From: Mesorhizobium sp.
Lineage (GTDB): Bacteria > Pseudomonadota > Alphaproteobacteria > Rhizobiales > Rhizobiaceae
Direction of reading: 5' to 3'
Length of the DNA stretch: 33,163 nt
NCBI RefSeq assembly: GCF_017306585.1
Contig: NZ_JAFKIC010000167.1
Coordinates: forward strand, 1 to 33,163
Positions 17,308 to 25,311 of this stretch are shown one piece after another (within the stretch, counting starts at the first letter, position 1; every line of letters begins with the position of its first letter). The notes under the pieces are model-generated. The model was not told the DNA's origin and made no database searches. It worked only from the letters and a program-made list of their open reading frames with translations. The position numbers and the translations under genes were made by a program.

Positions 17308-18042
17308 TCAGTTCGAAAGCATGCGGTCGACCCAGCCTAGGAAGCCGCCTTCGGCCTTGACCGGCTCGAGTGCCTTCGCCGGCACGGATGCAGCGCGCTG
17401 CGTATGCGCCCGCGGTGGCAGGTATTTGTTGGTCGGGCGATAGCCCATCTCCGGCATCAGGTCGACGCCCCCGCGCTCCGCCACCAGCTGCGATACGGCC
17501 GAGGCTGGATCGCCAAGGTCGCCGAAATGGCGAGCGCTGGTCGGGCAGGCGGCGACACAGGCCGGCACACGGTCTCCTTCGGCCAGATTGTCGTTATAGA
17601 TGCGGTCGACGCACAGTGTGCACTTCTTCATGACGCCGACATCGGTGTCGAACTCGCGCGCGCCATACGGGCAGGCCCAGCTGCAGAGCTTGCAGCCGAT
17701 GCACTTGCTCTCGTCGATCAGAACGATACCGTCCGATGCCCGCTTGTACGATGCTCCGGTCGGGCAGACGGTGACACAGGCCGGTGTCTCGCAATGCAGG
17801 CAGGAGCGCGGAAAGTTCACGGTGCGCCCGCCCATCTCGGTGGTGTGCTCATAGCTGTGCACGCGGTTGAACCAGACGCCGTCGACATGGCCGCCATAAG
17901 GGTCGGTGTCGGTCAGCGGCGCCATGTGGCCGCCCGTGTTCCATTCCTTGCAGGCGGTCACGCAAGCCTGGCAGCCGACGCAGGTGTCGAGGTCGATGAC
18001 GAGACCAAGCCTTTTGTCCATATGGGAAGGCAGGCAGGTCAT
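17308..18042 (-). CDS. 4Fe-4S ferredoxin-type electron transfer subunit (DmsB/SoeB-like)
   Basis: The product is 244 residues with four cysteine clusters typical of DmsB-type subunits carrying four [4Fe-4S] centres. These are CVGCQACVTAC (C21, C24, C27, C31), CLHCETPACVTVCP, CIGCKLCSWACP and a CTLC...CVAACP arrangement. It shuttles electrons between the molybdenum subunit and the membrane anchor. There is no Tat or Sec signal, which fits a cytoplasmic complex. The C-terminal 35 residues extend past the core and may contact the anchor. Its ATG overlaps the large-subunit stop by four bases (ATGA). Confidence 0.9.
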   Translation of the reverse strand: MTCLPSHMDKRLGLVIDLDTCVGCQACVTACKEWNTGGHMAPLTDTDPYGGHVDGVWFNRVHSYEHTTEMGGRTVNFPRSCLHCETPACVTVCPTGASYKRASDGIVLIDESKCIGCKLCSWACPYGAREFDTDVGVMKKCTLCVDRIYNDNLAEGDRVPACVAACPTSARHFGDLGDPASAVSQLVAERGGVDLMPEMGYRPTNKYLPPRAHTQRAASVPAKALEPVKAEGGFLGWVDRMLSN

Positions 18043-20969
18043 TGGGCGGCTTCCCTTGCGTGGCGGAATTCAGCACCGAAACGCGATATGTCGGGCGACG
18101 GCTCGAAATGCGGCGGTTGTTCGAAACGCTCGAATTGGGGCTCCGTAAAGCCGGCCTCCTGCGGCGCGCATTTGACGATGCGCACGCGAAGGTCAAACCA
18201 TGCCGCTTGACCGGTCACAGGGTCGGCATTCGCATAGCGCCTGCCGTTGGCGTCAGCGGATGTCTGGTCGCCGATGATATGGTTGAGCAGGAAGCCGCGA
18301 TTGCTCTCGCCGGCGTCGTCTTTTAATCCCCAGCTCCCGCGTCTCTTACCGATCGCATTCCAGGTCCAGACCGTGCTCTCGTTCACGCCGTCGATCAGTT
18401 TGATCTGCCCCTTGACCCGGCCGTTGATGCTTTCGATCCACACCCAGTCATCGTCGACGAGCCCGAGGCCCGCCCCGGTCCTGTGATGCACGAACAACCG
18501 GTTCTGGCTGGTGATTTGCCTGAGCCAAGCATTCTGTGAACCCCAGGAATGGTACATGTGCATCGGCCGCTGCGTCAGCGCATGCAGCGGGTATTTCTCG
18601 AGGTCCACGGCGGCTTCCTCGAACGGCATGTACCAGATGGGCAGCGGGTCCATGTAGGTCTCGATGCGCTTGCGTTCCGTCTGCGGCGGCAGCACCCGGC
18701 CATGGCCGCGCGCGGCGAGCCGGAAGCGCTGCATCGGTTCGGAATAGAGCTGGAAGACGATGGGCTCGGCCTTCGGGATAAAGCCCATCTGAACCGCGAA
18801 ATCGAGATAGGCGCGGTTGCCCATCTTGTAGAAGCGCTGGTCAGCGGCAAGGTCATGGTGCCAGAAGCCGCCATTGTCGATATAGCGCTGCAACTGGTTG
18901 GGATTAGGCTTACCCTTGCCGGTCGAAGTGCCGTCCTTGCCGCGCCAGCCGGCCAGCGGGCCGATGCCCGGCGTGCGCTCATGATTGACGATATAGTCGG
19001 CATAGTCGTGGTACTTCGCCGAGCCATCCTCGTTGACGAAGCCAGGCAGGCCAAGCCGCGCGCCGAGCTCGATCAGCACCGACTGGAACGGCCTGACGTC
19101 GCGGTCCGGCTCGACCACCGGATGGCGGATCGCATCGCCCGGTCCGTCGGCATGGCTGATCGGCCGGTCGAGAAGGCTGATGCAGTCGTGGCGTTCGAGG
19201 TAGGTCGTGTCCGGCAGCACGAGATCGGCAAAGGGCACGGTCTCGGAATAATAGGCGTCGGAATAGATGATGAAGGGAATCCTGTAGGCGGCGGCCTCGT
19301 CCTTGTCGGTCAGCATGGCGATGGTCTCGACGGTGTTCATCGAGGAATTCCACGCCATGTTCGACATATACATCATCAGCGTGTCGATCTTGTATGGATC
19401 GCCGGCCCAGGCATTGCGGATGACGCTGTGCATCAGTCCGTGCGCGGCCAGCGGAGCGTCCCAGGAATAGGCCTTGTCGATGCGCAGCGGCGTGCCCGCC
19501 TCGTCGACCAGCAGGTCGTCGGGGCCGCAGACGAAGCCGAGCGGCATGCCGTCCAGGGGCGTCATCGGTTTGACGGCCTTGCCAGAAGGTTTGGGGCCTG
19601 GCGGCGCCGATTTCGGGTAGGGCGGCTTGAAGCGGAAGCCGCCGGGTACATCCACAGTGCCCAGCAGCACCTGCAGCAGGTGGATGGCGCGGCAGGTGTG
19701 GAAACCGTTGGAATGGGCCGAGATGCCGCGCATGGCGTGCATCGCCACCGGTCGGCCCTTGATCGTCTCGTGCCGGCGCCCGGCCCAGTCGGTCCACGCC
19801 ACCGGCAATTCGATCGTCTGCTCGAAGGCGACATGGGCGAGTTCGGCGGCGATCCGCCGGATGGTGGCGGCCGATATGCCGCAGCGCTCGGCGACAGCGT
19901 CCGGTGAATAGCTCTCGTCGAGATAGCGGTCAGCGATCAGCTGGAACACCGGCACGCAGCGTCGGCCATTCACCTCATGGCTGCCGGTGAGTGCCGGCTT
20001 CGCCAGCGCGTCGTCGGCGCGGACCGGCTTTTCGGCAACCCTGTCCCACGCCAGCGGATTGCCGTCCGCGTCACGTACGAACAGCCCGTCATCGGCGGCG
20101 CCCGGTTCCTGTATGACGAGCGTGTGGGCATTGGTGTAGCGCAGGAGATAGTCGAGATCGACGCGGCCTGCCTTCAGCAACTCGTGGATCAACGCGAACA
20201 CGAACAGGCCGTCCGTGCCCGGCCGGATGCCGATCCAGTCGTCGGCGATCGCATTGTAGCCGGTGCGGCACGGATTGATCGACACGACCTTGGCGCCGCG
20301 CGCCTTGAGCTTGCCCAGCCCGATCTTGATCGGGTTGGAATCATGATCCTCGGCGACGCCGAACAGCATGAAGTATTTCGTGTTGTCCCAGTCCGGCTCG
20401 CCGAACTCCCAGAACGAACCGCCGATCGAATAGAGCCCGCCGGCCGCCATGTTGACCGAACAGAAGCCGCCATGGGCGGCGAAATTGGGCGTGCCGAACT
20501 TCGCCGCCCACCAGCCCGTCAAGGACTGCGACTGGTCGCGCCCGGTGAAGAAGGCGAGCTTCTTCGGGTCGGTGCGGCGGATGGCCGAGAGCCGTTCGGT
20601 GGCGATCGAGAAAGCCTCTTCCCACTCGATCTCGCGGAATGCGCCGGAGCCGCGCGGGCCGGTGCGCAAGAGCGGCTTCTTCAGCCGGGCGGGGCTGTAG
20701 TGCTGCATGATGCCGGAGCTGCCCTTGCCGCAGATCACGCCGCGATTGACCGGATGGTCCTTGTTGCCGTTGATGTAGCGGACCTTGCCGTTCTTGATGT
20801 GCACCTCGATCCCGCAGCGGCAGGCGCACATGTAGCAGGTGGTTTTGGCCACACGGTCGGAGACATCGGGCGAGGTATCGACACCGTCGCCCTCGTCAGG
20901 AGCGCGCGTGTCGGCCAGCGGGCGTTGCGACGGTGCCGAATTCGCGCCGCGCGGCGGTCCGTGCATCAT
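18039..20969 (-). CDS. Molybdopterin oxidoreductase, SoeA-like sulfite dehydrogenase large subunit
   Basis: This 976-residue DMSO-reductase-family enzyme starts at the ATG at 20969. The N-terminal [4Fe-4S] motif is C45-x2-C48-x3-C52-x27-C80 (CYMCACRC...VICGKG). The bis-MGD domains follow, and C170 in GGFCSVN is the likely Mo ligand. The C-terminal molydop-binding domain covers about 830-960. No twin-arginine signal is present, so the enzyme should be cytoplasmic; this and the three-subunit operon with a DmsC anchor match SoeA, which oxidises sulfite to sulfate. A TauE/SafE exporter lies nearby. I rejected a TTG start at 21092: the 41 extra residues are Arg-rich, out of family, and are the shadow of a small ORF in another frame. 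Thiosulfate/polysulfide reductase is the main alternative function. Confidence 0.85.
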   Translation of the reverse strand: MMHGPPRGANSAPSQRPLADTRAPDEGDGVDTSPDVSDRVAKTTCYMCACRCGIEVHIKNGKVRYINGNKDHPVNRGVICGKGSSGIMQHYSPARLKKPLLRTGPRGSGAFREIEWEEAFSIATERLSAIRRTDPKKLAFFTGRDQSQSLTGWWAAKFGTPNFAAHGGFCSVNMAAGGLYSIGGSFWEFGEPDWDNTKYFMLFGVAEDHDSNPIKIGLGKLKARGAKVVSINPCRTGYNAIADDWIGIRPGTDGLFVFALIHELLKAGRVDLDYLLRYTNAHTLVIQEPGAADDGLFVRDADGNPLAWDRVAEKPVRADDALAKPALTGSHEVNGRRCVPVFQLIADRYLDESYSPDAVAERCGISAATIRRIAAELAHVAFEQTIELPVAWTDWAGRRHETIKGRPVAMHAMRGISAHSNGFHTCRAIHLLQVLLGTVDVPGGFRFKPPYPKSAPPGPKPSGKAVKPMTPLDGMPLGFVCGPDDLLVDEAGTPLRIDKAYSWDAPLAAHGLMHSVIRNAWAGDPYKIDTLMMYMSNMAWNSSMNTVETIAMLTDKDEAAAYRIPFIIYSDAYYSETVPFADLVLPDTTYLERHDCISLLDRPISHADGPGDAIRHPVVEPDRDVRPFQSVLIELGARLGLPGFVNEDGSAKYHDYADYIVNHERTPGIGPLAGWRGKDGTSTGKGKPNPNQLQRYIDNGGFWHHDLAADQRFYKMGNRAYLDFAVQMGFIPKAEPIVFQLYSEPMQRFRLAARGHGRVLPPQTERKRIETYMDPLPIWYMPFEEAAVDLEKYPLHALTQRPMHMYHSWGSQNAWLRQITSQNRLFVHHRTGAGLGLVDDDWVWIESINGRVKGQIKLIDGVNESTVWTWNAIGKRRGSWGLKDDAGESNRGFLLNHIIGDQTSADANGRRYANADPVTGQAAWFDLRVRIVKCAPQEAGFTEPQFERFEQPPHFEPSPDISRFGAEFRHAREAAQ

Positions 20970-21124
20970 GATCGCGTCGTGCCGGCGGCGCCGGCGGACT
21001 TGGCCCGCGTTTTCGGTCCGGGGCCGCGCATATAGTGCTCTTCCGGGTGGTAGCGATCGCCGGCAAGCCGTCGCCTCAAGCCACGGGTCCAATGCGCAAG
21101 CAGGGATCTGAACCGCTCGATCAT
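20966..21124 (-). CDS. Unrecognised 52-residue ORF coupled to the oxidoreductase operon
   Basis: An ATG-started 52-codon ORF ends in a TGA that overlaps the oxidoreductase start as ATGA, the same overlap used between the two downstream subunits. The peptide begins MIERFRSLLAHWTRGLRRRL, a basic amphipathic helix. The middle is GDRYHPEEHYMRGPGP and the tail is Lys/Ala/Ser-rich. It has no cysteine, transmembrane segment or Tat signal. The upstream context (AT-rich, just after the regulator's operator-like repeat) fits the first gene of the operon. I do not recognise the family. A role as an assembly factor or small subunit of the molybdoenzyme is a guess from position only. It could instead be a leader peptide used for translational coupling. 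Confidence 0.6.
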   Translation of the reverse strand: MIERFRSLLAHWTRGLRRRLAGDRYHPEEHYMRGPGPKTRAKSAGAAGTTRS

Positions 21125-21150
21125 TTTATTCTCTGCGGCCTGGTGGCCAA

Positions 21151-21175
21151 TTTTTTCTAACTTCGTTGGAAAAAG
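21151..21175. promoter_or_regulatory. Inverted repeat in the LysR/molybdoenzyme divergent promoter
   Basis: Arms TTTTTTCTAAC (21151-21161) and GTTGGAAAAAG (21165-21175) pair at 9 of 11 positions around TTC. The repeat lies between the divergent LysR gene and the molybdoenzyme operon, the usual location of a LysR-type operator. It does not fit a strict T-N11-A box. Confidence 0.4.
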
Positions 21176-21247
21176 TAGAATGAAGCTATCGATCCGTCTA
21201 ATCAGTTGTTCTTGTAAATTCGATCGATATTGGTTCTTAATGCTGAT

Positions 21248-22156
21248 ATGACCCTGGAACAGTTGCGCATCTTCGTTGCCGTTGCCGAGCGCGGCCACAT
21301 GACCAAGGCGGCCGAGCTTCTGGGTATCTCCCAGTCGGCGGCATCGGCGGCCATCCGCGCGCTCGAGGAGCAGCACGGCGTCCAGCTTTTCAATCGTGTC
21401 GGGCGCAACATCGAACTGGCCCAGACCGGCCATCGCTTCCTGCCCGAGGCCAAGGCCGTGCTTGAACGCGCCGCTGCCGCGCGCAATGTGCTCGAACATG
21501 TTTCGCAGACCGTGGCCGGCAGTCTCTCCATTGCCGCCAGCCTGACCATCGCCAGCTACTGGCTGCCGCGCCGGCTGGCTTCCTTCCACGAAGCCTATCC
21601 GGCCGTCCGGCTGAGCGTCACCATAGGCAACACCAGGCAGGTCGAGGCCAGCGTACTGGATGGAACCGCCGACCTCGGCCTGGTCGAGGGGCGCACCGAG
21701 TCCGACATATTGCGCCGCGCCAGGGTCGATATCGACCGCCTGATGCTGGTCGTCGCGGCTTCCCATCCCGAGATCGCCGAAACCGCGCCGGGCTATCCCG
21801 ATATCAAAGGGCTGCGCTGGATCATCCGCGAAGGCGGTTCAGGCACGCGAGAGGTGCTGGAGGATTTGGCGCGGCGCGAGGGGATTTCGCTTGCCGACTT
21901 GCAGATATTCCTGGTGCTGCCCAGCAACGAGGCGGTTCGCCAGGCGGTGGAGGCCGGCGCCGGCGCCACCATCATTTCGGAACTCGTCGTCGGACGCGCG
22001 GTGGCCGAGGGGAGCCTGAGGGCGGTGCCCATCGAATTGCCAAGGCGCGACTTCGCCATGATCACGCATCGCGATCGCCAGGCGAGCCTGGCGCAGATGG
22101 CGCTCAAGGCGCATCTAGGCGCGAATCCGGATGAAACGGCTCCGGCCAAGTCGTGA
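21248..22156 (+). CDS. LysR family transcriptional regulator
   Basis: The product is 302 residues with an N-terminal winged HTH (about 1-60: MTLEQLRIFVAVAERGHMTK, then AAELLGISQSAASAAIRALE, then QLFNRVGR). A LysR substrate-binding domain follows (about 90-290). The ATG at 21248 gives the standard LysR N-terminus; a TTG 18 bp upstream would add six atypical residues. It is divergent from the molybdoenzyme operon, so it is the likely regulator of those genes and of itself. The inducer is unknown; sulfite or a sulfonate is an inference from the neighbours. Its stop is 15 bp from the stop of the convergent Hsp70-like gene. Confidence 0.9.
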   Translation: MTLEQLRIFVAVAERGHMTKAAELLGISQSAASAAIRALEEQHGVQLFNRVGRNIELAQTGHRFLPEAKAVLERAAAARNVLEHVSQTVAGSLSIAASLTIASYWLPRRLASFHEAYPAVRLSVTIGNTRQVEASVLDGTADLGLVEGRTESDILRRARVDIDRLMLVVAASHPEIAETAPGYPDIKGLRWIIREGGSGTREVLEDLARREGISLADLQIFLVLPSNEAVRQAVEAGAGATIISELVVGRAVAEGSLRAVPIELPRRDFAMITHRDRQASLAQMALKAHLGANPDETAPAKS

Positions 22157-23596: not shown

Positions 23597-24388
23597 TCAA
23601 TCTTTGCGGAACACCAGCCGCCCGAGCCAGCCCGTCACCATGGCCAGCGATACCGCAAACACGCCGTAGAGAAAGGAATAGTCGTGGGCGACGCGGAAGA
23701 TCGATTGCTCGAAACCGGATTTGCGGATTTCGAGCTGCGCGGAGCTTTCCTTGATGAACAGCCCGCTCTTGAACAGGAAGGCACGCGCCTTGTGGGTGCC
23801 GACCGGCACGTTGGGCGCCAGCCTCACGGTGGCGCGAAACAGGTTCTGCGACAGGAACTGTACGCCGCCGACATTCTCGCTGTAGAGGCCGGCCGCCGCC
23901 TTGCGTTCGCGCAACGCCGCGGTGAACTCCTCGATCGTCGCCGGGCTTTCGCCGGCGTCGGCGGGTTGCATGTAAAGGTTGGAGGCGCCGAGCGACAGCT
24001 GCTTGTAGCTGTTCGGTTCGGTGATGTCCTGCAGCGGCCGTGTCGTCGCCACGGAATAGGAGACCGGCACGTTCTCGAAGGTCTCGGATTCCAGATTGAT
24101 CCAGACGCCGAGCACACGGTCCTTGCGGCGCACCACCACCGGCTTGGGGGGGCCTTCGAGCACGACGATGACGTCGTAGCGGCCTTGGCGCGCAACGAGA
24201 GGGTCAGGGTTTTCAAGCGAGCCGAAGATGGTCAGGTCGGCGCCGGAGAAACCGGCGGTGATCGAGACATTGTCGGTGGACAGCCCGATCTGGATGCCTT
24301 CCGGCAGCGGCGTCTGCGCCTTCGCCGGCACAGCGGCCGCGAGCAGGGAGAGGAAAATGGCTGCCGCGAAGCTTCCCGGGCCCTTCAT
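23597..24388 (-). CDS. TIGR02186 family membrane-anchored extracytoplasmic protein
   Basis: The product is 263 residues. A Sec signal peptide ends near AKA-Q (about residue 24), a long beta-rich extracytoplasmic domain follows (about 25-230), and a single C-terminal helix (about 238-258) is followed by basic residues. This topology places the bulk in the periplasm, anchored at the C-terminus. It resembles the alphaproteobacterial TIGR02186 family, whose function is not known to me. The gene overlaps the TauE/SafE stop by one base (TGATG), so the two are translationally coupled and may form one export unit. Confidence 0.8.
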   Translation of the reverse strand: MKGPGSFAAAIFLSLLAAAVPAKAQTPLPEGIQIGLSTDNVSITAGFSGADLTIFGSLENPDPLVARQGRYDVIVVLEGPPKPVVVRRKDRVLGVWINLESETFENVPVSYSVATTRPLQDITEPNSYKQLSLGASNLYMQPADAGESPATIEEFTAALRERKAAAGLYSENVGGVQFLSQNLFRATVRLAPNVPVGTHKARAFLFKSGLFIKESSAQLEIRKSGFEQSIFRVAHDYSFLYGVFAVSLAMVTGWLGRLVFRKD

Positions 24389-25311
24389 CAGTTGAGGCCC
24401 GCGCCGGACAGCGAATAGAGGTTCGGCGGTGTGACGAAGAGGTCGATGGCAAGTCTTATCGCCACCGCCAGCACCAGCAGCGCCAGCAATGCCCTGAGCT
24501 GCTCCCCGCGCAGCCTCTGGCCGGCCTTGGCGCCATATTGCGCGCCGGCGACGCCGCCGGCCATCAGCAGGAAGGCCAGCATCACGTCGACGGTCTGGTT
24601 GGTGGTGGCGTGAACCAGCGTCGTGTAGGCGGAGGTGAAGATGATCTGGAACAGCGAGGTGCCGATAACCACGTTGGTCGGCACCTTGAGCAGGTAGATC
24701 AGCGCCGGCACCATGATGAAGCCGCCGCCGACGCCCATGATCGACGACAGGAAGCCGATGCCGGCACCGAGGCCAAGCACCGGGATGACGCTGACGAAGA
24801 GTTTCGAGGCCCGGAAGCGCATCTTCAGCGGCAGGCGGTGGATCCAGTTGTGCTGGCCGGATTTCTTCAGCACCGGCGCCGCGCCGCTGCGCGTGGCGCG
24901 CAGCGCATTCACACTCTCGACCAGCATCAATCCGCCGACCGTGCCGAGCAGCACGACGTAAAGCAGAGAGATGAACAGGTCGAGCTGGCCGAGCCTGCGC
25001 AGGAAAGCGAAGACGTAGATGCCGCCGGTGGAGCCGACGATTCCGCCGGCCAGAAGCACGCCGCCGAGCTTGAAGTCGAGCGTGCCACGCTTCATGTGCG
25101 ACAGCGCGCCGGAGAAGGAGGAGGCGATGACCTGGTTGGCGCCCGTGGCGACAGCGATCGCCGGGGGAATGTTGTAGAAGATCAGCAGCGGCGTGATGAG
25201 AAAGCCGCCGCCGACGCCGAACATGCCCGACAGGAAGCCCACCGCGGCGCCCATGGCCAGCAGCACGAAGACGTTGACGGAAATTTCCGCGATCGGGAGA
25301 TAGATGCCCAC
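24388..25311 (-). CDS. Sulfite exporter TauE/SafE family permease
   Basis: This 307-residue permease has about eight membrane helices. The family's internal duplication is visible as two near-identical motifs: FGVGGGFLITPLLIFY (about 30-46) and MGVGGGFIMVPALIYLL in the second half. TauE/SafE proteins export sulfite, sulfoacetate or related organosulfur anions. The start is a GTG at 25311. It lies upstream of, and overlaps, the TIGR02186-type gene. Being near a SoeABC-like operon supports a sulfite substrate, but substrate cannot be read from the sequence. Confidence 0.88.
   Translation of the reverse strand: MGIYLPIAEISVNVFVLLAMGAAVGFLSGMFGVGGGFLITPLLIFYNIPPAIAVATGANQVIASSFSGALSHMKRGTLDFKLGGVLLAGGIVGSTGGIYVFAFLRRLGQLDLFISLLYVVLLGTVGGLMLVESVNALRATRSGAAPVLKKSGQHNWIHRLPLKMRFRASKLFVSVIPVLGLGAGIGFLSSIMGVGGGFIMVPALIYLLKVPTNVVIGTSLFQIIFTSAYTTLVHATTNQTVDVMLAFLLMAGGVAGAQYGAKAGQRLRGEQLRALLALLVLAVAIRLAIDLFVTPPNLYSLSGAGLN

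Follow-up and report, generated by a model that had tools for sequence, protein, structure and literature searches.

A 52-codon open reading frame (ORF) in a 33,163-nt stretch of Mesorhizobium sp. DNA (contig NZ_JAFKIC010000167.1 of assembly GCF_017306585.1; hereafter the window) is a real protein gene, and there is about an even chance that its product is an accessory protein of the SoeABC-like sulfite dehydrogenase whose operon it heads. The ORF runs on the minus strand from position 21124 to 20966, starts with ATG, ends with TGA, and encodes MIERFRSLLAHWTRGLRRRLAGDRYHPEEHYMRGPGPKTRAKSAGAAGTTRS (52 aa); read on the plus strand, the same interval is interrupted by a stop. A sequence-only reading of the window had singled out this ORF as unrecognised, leaving its strand unsaid. 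In agreement with that reading, the small protein gave no match in Pfam (listed up to E 10) or NCBIfam, and a search of the PDB returned nothing convincing, the best hit (E 0.3) being an NqrF chain that is alike over a short YMxGPGP stretch. The product consists of a basic amphipathic N-terminus and the motif YxPExHYMRGPGP.

The sequence-only reading had expected the ORF to stand or fall by its conservation in related genomes and by selection on its amino-acid sequence, and both speak for it. A match to the small gene was found in 145 of 146 Mesorhizobium genomes at E <= 0.01, and a strong match (E <= 3.4e-16) in 130 of them. The 65 strong loci that were read comprise the 30 best, 33 picked from elsewhere in the genus, and 2 named loci, and are not a random draw. 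Start codons picked by script at 64 of these loci (62 genomes, two of which were read twice; L043, without a start, was left out) were ATG in 50, GTG in 7, and TTG in 7, and one genome (G131) has a shortened frame. Exactly 52 codons were present at 51 of the 65 loci, and the 50 distinct genes among them gave a ratio of nonsynonymous to synonymous substitution rates (dN/dS) of 0.28 (bootstrap 0.18-0.42), which is not neutral. By region, the ratio was 0.32 for codons 2-22, 0.083 for codons 23-41, and 0.75 for the last 11 codons, and third codon positions took 52% of the differences. The other two sense frames gave 1.3 and 1.8, and the three antisense frames gave 1.2, 0.40, and 1.8. A chance ORF, or a shadow of soeA or of antisense coding, might be suspected in a GC-rich window with many spurious ORFs, the more so as one antisense frame gives 0.40; this explanation is contradicted by the genus-wide conservation, by the selection on amino acids, and by eight additional loci that come from three other families within the order, and we regard it as scarcely credible. 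Because of the conservation and the dN/dS values, the small ORF is a real gene, beyond what chance would give. The reading frame is thus under selection at the amino-acid level.

The TGA of the small gene (20968-20966) and the ATG of soeA (20969-20967) overlap as ATGA, and the soeA stop and soeB start share a second ATGA at 18042-18039; both overlaps had been described correctly from the sequence. It had also been pointed out that a TTG start at 21092 would bury the small gene, and the soeA frame is open back to that codon (1017 aa), across most of the small gene. In Mesorhizobium relatives, the soeA ATG is kept 40-43 codons ahead of the Fe-S cysteine motif (one also has GTG). The window therefore illustrates a trap in start calling, in which the longest-ORF start for soeA buries the small gene. 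The overlap was ATGA at 63 of the 64 loci and GTGA at the remaining one. The anti-Shine-Dalgarno pairing of soeA, scored on the 17 nt upstream of the ATG and ending 3 nt before it, averaged -2.5 kcal/mol at the 64 loci versus -2.7 kcal/mol for 300 random coding 17-mers of the window. The leader of the small gene itself pairs at -4.1 kcal/mol, a modest value. Given the weak Shine-Dalgarno site and the ATGA overlap, soeA is probably translated by termination-reinitiation after the small gene. At eight loci outside the genus, the junction was ATGA in three (G457, G611, and G605), GTGA in one (G541), a TAATG overlap in one (G484), a 3-nt gap in two (G549 and G571), and a gap of tens of nucleotides in one (G505).

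The presence of the small gene is linked to the type of SoeA. A SoeA match was found in 144 of the 146 genus genomes, of which 130 carry the type in the window (at least 86% identity, some as fragments) and 14 carry a type of 60-62% identity. Comparison of the two lists by hand showed that the same 130 genomes hold the strong small gene and the window-type SoeA, whereas the 16 others (14 with the 60-62% SoeA and 2 without SoeA) have no strong small-gene match. In one of the 130 (G132), the small gene and soeA lie on separate contigs. In an order sample of 397 genomes, SoeA was matched at E <= 1e-150 in 108 and a member of the small-protein family in 64. The region upstream of soeA was read in 57 of the 108 order genomes and in 13 more genus genomes. 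The motif was present there in eight genomes beyond the genus, from three other families (G505, G549, G571, G457, G611, G605, G541, and G484), and the small gene also precedes soeA in G262, which belongs to the same family as Mesorhizobium. No motif was seen upstream of soeA at the remaining loci read; one of these is in G212, which has a SoeA of 83% identity. G550 carries the small gene 18 nt past the end of soeC, in the same orientation.

SoeA proteins linked to the small gene carry an N-terminal extension with the consensus GANSxPSQRPLA...EGDGVxTSP. Of 81 loci, 73 were scored for both features, the other 8 lacking a match to the Fe-S anchor and showing no motif. Both features were present at 27 loci (25 genomes, as G505 and G484 were read twice), neither at 44, and only one at 2. 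One of the discordant loci, in G550, has the small gene with a SoeA of different N-terminus. Seven of the 33 Mesorhizobium loci L041-L073 are among the 73 scored; 32 of the 33 were inspected, and the extension was recognized by eye in all 32. Of the 26 positives on a tree of 41 SoeA catalytic regions, 24 fell into a single clade of 25 rows (support 100/100). G484 falls outside this clade, yet it has both the small gene and the extension, a placement that fits exchange of the SoeA body beneath a retained 5' region. The link is strong, but it is only partly independent because the positives cluster in one SoeA clade and the two features are adjacent; descent and adjacency explain part of it. Two loci of one genus, L160 (G484) and L149 (G605), have SoeA bodies of different lineages with a similar small gene and extension, and the SoeA body may have been replaced there by recombination. 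At L180 (G078), a change of frame around residue 289 divides soeA, through assembly error or decay, and the small gene and extension are intact.

A regulatory leader would account for several of these features differently: ribosomes would stall at RGPGP, or would simply be delivered to soeA, and the product itself would be unimportant. The nearly constant ATGA overlap and the background-level Shine-Dalgarno pairing of soeA suit such a role, as does a constrained core followed by 11 nearly free codons. RAPP, RGPP, and RAGP have been reported as motifs that support arrest of translation (PMC12992588), and a copper operon is under the control of an upstream ORF whose product carries RAPP at its C-terminus (PMC9426467). 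However, the main text of PMC12992588 contains no RGPG, and distant relatives of the small protein (L238-L244) keep only YxPExxYMRG without GPGP, two of them ending at its glycine. The genes downstream of many copies vary or lie on the opposite strand, and the position behind soeC in G550 favors a working protein over a leader peptide. No excess RNA structure was found around the soeA start in three loci (z 0.4 to 1.7), and an RNA attenuator at this site was rejected because the folding was no stronger than expected. On account of the amino-acid selection, the placement in G550, the paralogues elsewhere, the loss of GPGP, and the lack of excess RNA structure, we favor a protein and hold a leader to be unlikely.

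The small protein belongs to a wider family. A 16-member profile matched 120 of 247 genomes in a family sample, in addition to the 64 of the order sample. A 31-member profile matched 15 of 367 class-sample genomes and 16 of 289 phylum-sample genomes, all 16 from the same order; the phylum result says little on other classes, as the rows shown are close relatives and the composition of the sample cannot be seen. Among 154 distinct sequences with Y.PE..YMRG, in which the eight positions named are fixed by construction, the sixth position was His in 144, and the three positions after MRG were P in 134, G in 146, and P in 147. Beyond the core, soe-linked members have GPGPK versus GPGPA in many orphans, although GPGPK also occurs in some non-soe members. 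Gene contexts of the paralogues were called by a GC-position score, and Pfam served to check 15 proteins, of which 14 are from relatives. Paralogues were located directly behind sulfatase, DctM permease, CoA-transferase, DSBA-domain, alcohol-dehydrogenase-like, or DUF6894 genes, or ahead of a Cu/Zn superoxide dismutase gene. The conserved motif thus cannot be specific to SoeA, because most members looked at sit away from soe genes. The proposal that the peptide is a dedicated subunit, chaperone, or leader of SoeABC-like enzymes therefore holds in part: a conserved coding gene does overlap the operon, whereas dedication to these enzymes is not supported, since the soe-linked copies are one branch of the family and 44 of 73 soeA loci lack both small gene and extension; the leader idea is disfavored.

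Several local syntenies were observed among the orphans. The genome of the window carries a second, orphan member, MNFLTHLIGYAAAIREFVAPTYRPERYYMRGPGPACARRGTSLGAH (L222, contig C248, and L031), between genes that resemble Ku/LigD and DCC genes by eye. Members at L075, L221, L227, and L207 lie directly behind or near sulfatase genes, the one at L221 being between a LysR-like gene and a radical-SAM/SPASM gene resembling a sulfatase-maturing enzyme. A longer member at L209, L210, L214, and L216 (L212 is less close) stands between an ABC-F-like gene, recognized by eye in the loci other than L209, and a 2-hydroxyacid dehydrogenase gene, assigned with Pfam for L214 only. At L118, L126, L128, L133, and L213, the member follows a same-strand small gene by 8-9 nt; this gene encodes DUF6894 in L128 and, judged by eye, is similar at the other four loci. 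Five annotated plasmid copies were examined: the Sinorhizobium and Bradyrhizobium copies are annotated as hypothetical proteins, and for those of Chelativorans and two Mesorhizobium the gene table, which is incomplete, lists no gene. No single neighbor common to all orphans was found. A general-stress (EcfG-like) promoter pattern preceded 1 of 38 orphan paralogues and 0 of 14 soe-linked copies, versus 27 of 1900 and 14 of 700 shuffles, and such a promoter was rejected. A sulfur theme (sulfatases, the radical-SAM gene near a sulfatase, and a cysteine-synthase-like PLP enzyme recognized by eye) leaves many contexts uncovered.

Such a distribution could mean that the small protein has a general role of its own and shares the operon for co-expression only, without contact with SoeABC. 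Its commonness in the family and order samples and the diversity of its neighbors, from sulfatases, DctM permease, and CoA-transferase to Cu/Zn superoxide dismutase and DUF6894, would agree with this. By contrast, the occurrence of both genes in the same 130 genus genomes, the retention of the G550 gene in the soe operon at its opposite end, and the soe-linked GPGPK signature, imperfect as it is, point to a tie with the enzyme, and we consider full independence somewhat unlikely. The shared presence in 130 genomes together with the SoeA extension is the reason to assign the protein a role with SoeA.

In the accessory-protein reading, which we prefer, a small basic cytoplasmic protein would be the first product of a four-gene operon (small gene, soeA, soeB, and soeC) whose enzyme probably converts sulfite to sulfate on the inner side of the membrane. 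Ribosomes finishing the small gene would restart on soeA, so that both products are made together. The small protein would then act on SoeA or the SoeABC complex, the simplest role being in assembly, stability, or docking to the membrane, with its basic amphipathic N-terminus touching the membrane or the SoeA extension and its YxPExHYMRGPGP segment binding a partner common to the whole family. The N-terminus bears out the earlier description of it as basic and amphipathic, with a hydrophobic moment of 0.71 (reached by 63 of 2000 shuffles) and a charge of +4. Several observations weigh against the accessory role or against the gene itself. The amphipathic signal is modest, and several other members show it less strongly. 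The family extends beyond soe loci, as most members looked at adjoin non-soe genes. Sulfite as the substrate is suggested only by homology and by neighboring genes. Because the junction varies among the eight loci outside the genus, tight coupling is not universal. G212 (L143) retains the extension but not the small gene, and the link between the two, adjacent as they are in the DNA, may reflect common descent. In G143, a start codon is missing around the expected position. As for the antisense frame with the value of 0.40, its third codon positions fall on those of the sense frame, and we therefore read its value as a shadow of the sense signal.

A broader version would make the family a new group of tiny alphaproteobacterial adaptors, in which an N-terminal helix is matched to the neighboring enzyme system, be it SoeABC, sulfatases, transporters, or others, and YxPExxYMRG docks every client on one shared cellular partner. 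A client-side helix combined with a shared motif would reconcile a role with SoeA and the wider family. We put this forward tentatively and think it unlikely; if true, the gene in the window would be the sulfite-oxidizing version, and the partner could be traced through the motif.

The features of the operon and its surroundings are listed in Table 1. The catalytic subunit has Fe4S4, molybdopterin, and dinucleotide-binding domains, and it is accompanied by a ferredoxin-like B subunit and an NrfD/DmsC-type C subunit. The best NCBIfam hit of SoeA is the thiosulfate reductase PhsA, far below the cut-off, and its best PDB match is Thermus 2vpw, named as a thiosulfate reductase. The operon is best called SoeABC-like, a name that refers to domain content and not to comparison with a characterized SoeA. 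The genes for the TIGR02186 protein and the TauE exporter recur in longer Mesorhizobium loci. YeiE, which is among the below-cut-off hits of the divergent regulator, is tied to sulfite stress in Salmonella (PMC12880088). Two conserved blocks lie in the intergenic region, around TTACAAGAACAACTGATTAGAC and GAAGTTAGAAAAAATT (minus-strand reading), and are likely LysR sites. The regulator site suggested in the sequence-only reading is plausible but no more than that, given the divergent LysR gene with YeiE among its below-cut-off hits and the strong conservation of the blocks.

Table 1. Features of the soe-like operon and flanking genes in the window
Feature	Position	Strand	Remarks
Small gene, 52 codons, heads the operon	20966..21124	-	Conserved frame, start, and stop; dN/dS 0.28
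Core motif YHPEEHYMRGPGP, residues 25-37 of the small protein	21014..21052	-	
soeA-like molybdopterin oxidoreductase, 976 aa, from the ATG overlapping the small-gene TGA	18039..20969	-	Molybdop_Fe4S4, Molybdopterin, Molydop_binding
SoeA N-terminal extension (GANSAPSQRPLADTRAPDEGDGVDTSP), co-occurs with the small gene	20868..20948	-	
soeB-like ferredoxin subunit, 244 residues, ATGA overlap with soeA	17308..18042	-	Fer4_11
soeC-like membrane anchor, 311 residues	16368..17303	-	DmsC
Divergent promoter/regulator region, conserved blocks	21125..21247	.	
Divergent LysR-family regulator gene	21248..22156	+	YeiE among best hits, below cut-off
TIGR02186 protein	23597-24388	-	
TauE/SafE exporter	24388-25311	-	

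The analysis brings out a small-protein family that is widespread, has a nearly invariant motif, and is missing from Pfam and NCBIfam, with no convincing relative in the PDB. In the open-access papers searched, we found neither the motif nor such a small soe-linked gene described, and the family as a whole was likewise not found there. For sulfite detoxification in rhizobia, a missing factor becomes directly testable, and the shared motif provides a handle for finding the common partner.

Redox-enzyme chaperones such as TorD, DmsD, and NarJ have ~200 residues. The small gene resembles theirs as an accessory gene in a molybdoenzyme operon and differs from them in encoding only 52 residues. Small conserved helpers of respiratory systems are already known from TorE/NapE, and TorE is described in PMC6134056 as membranous and as improving anchoring and complex formation. 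The window protein (P0001) is likewise a very small protein retained with a respiratory system. Unlike TorE, compared here by its description, it has a basic N-terminus, a negative mean hydrophobicity (-0.32 with a charge of +4 for the best N-terminal segment, values that speak against a transmembrane helix), and another motif. With the RAPP/RGPP/RAGP arrest peptides and the upstream-ORF regulator CruR, it shares a small first ORF, an R-G-P segment, and a coupled downstream gene. Its RGPGP, however, lies outside the motifs named in the text consulted and is missing in distant relatives, and the gene can sit behind the operon. The operon resembles SoeABC in having a molybdenum/Fe-S A subunit, a ferredoxin B subunit, a DmsC-type C subunit, and neighboring genes for a TauE exporter and a YeiE-like LysR regulator; inspection of the SoeA N-terminus by eye showed no twin-arginine signal. 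SoeABC is described with three subunits in PMC8076601, whereas the operon in the window is headed by a conserved fourth, small gene and encodes an N-terminally extended SoeA.

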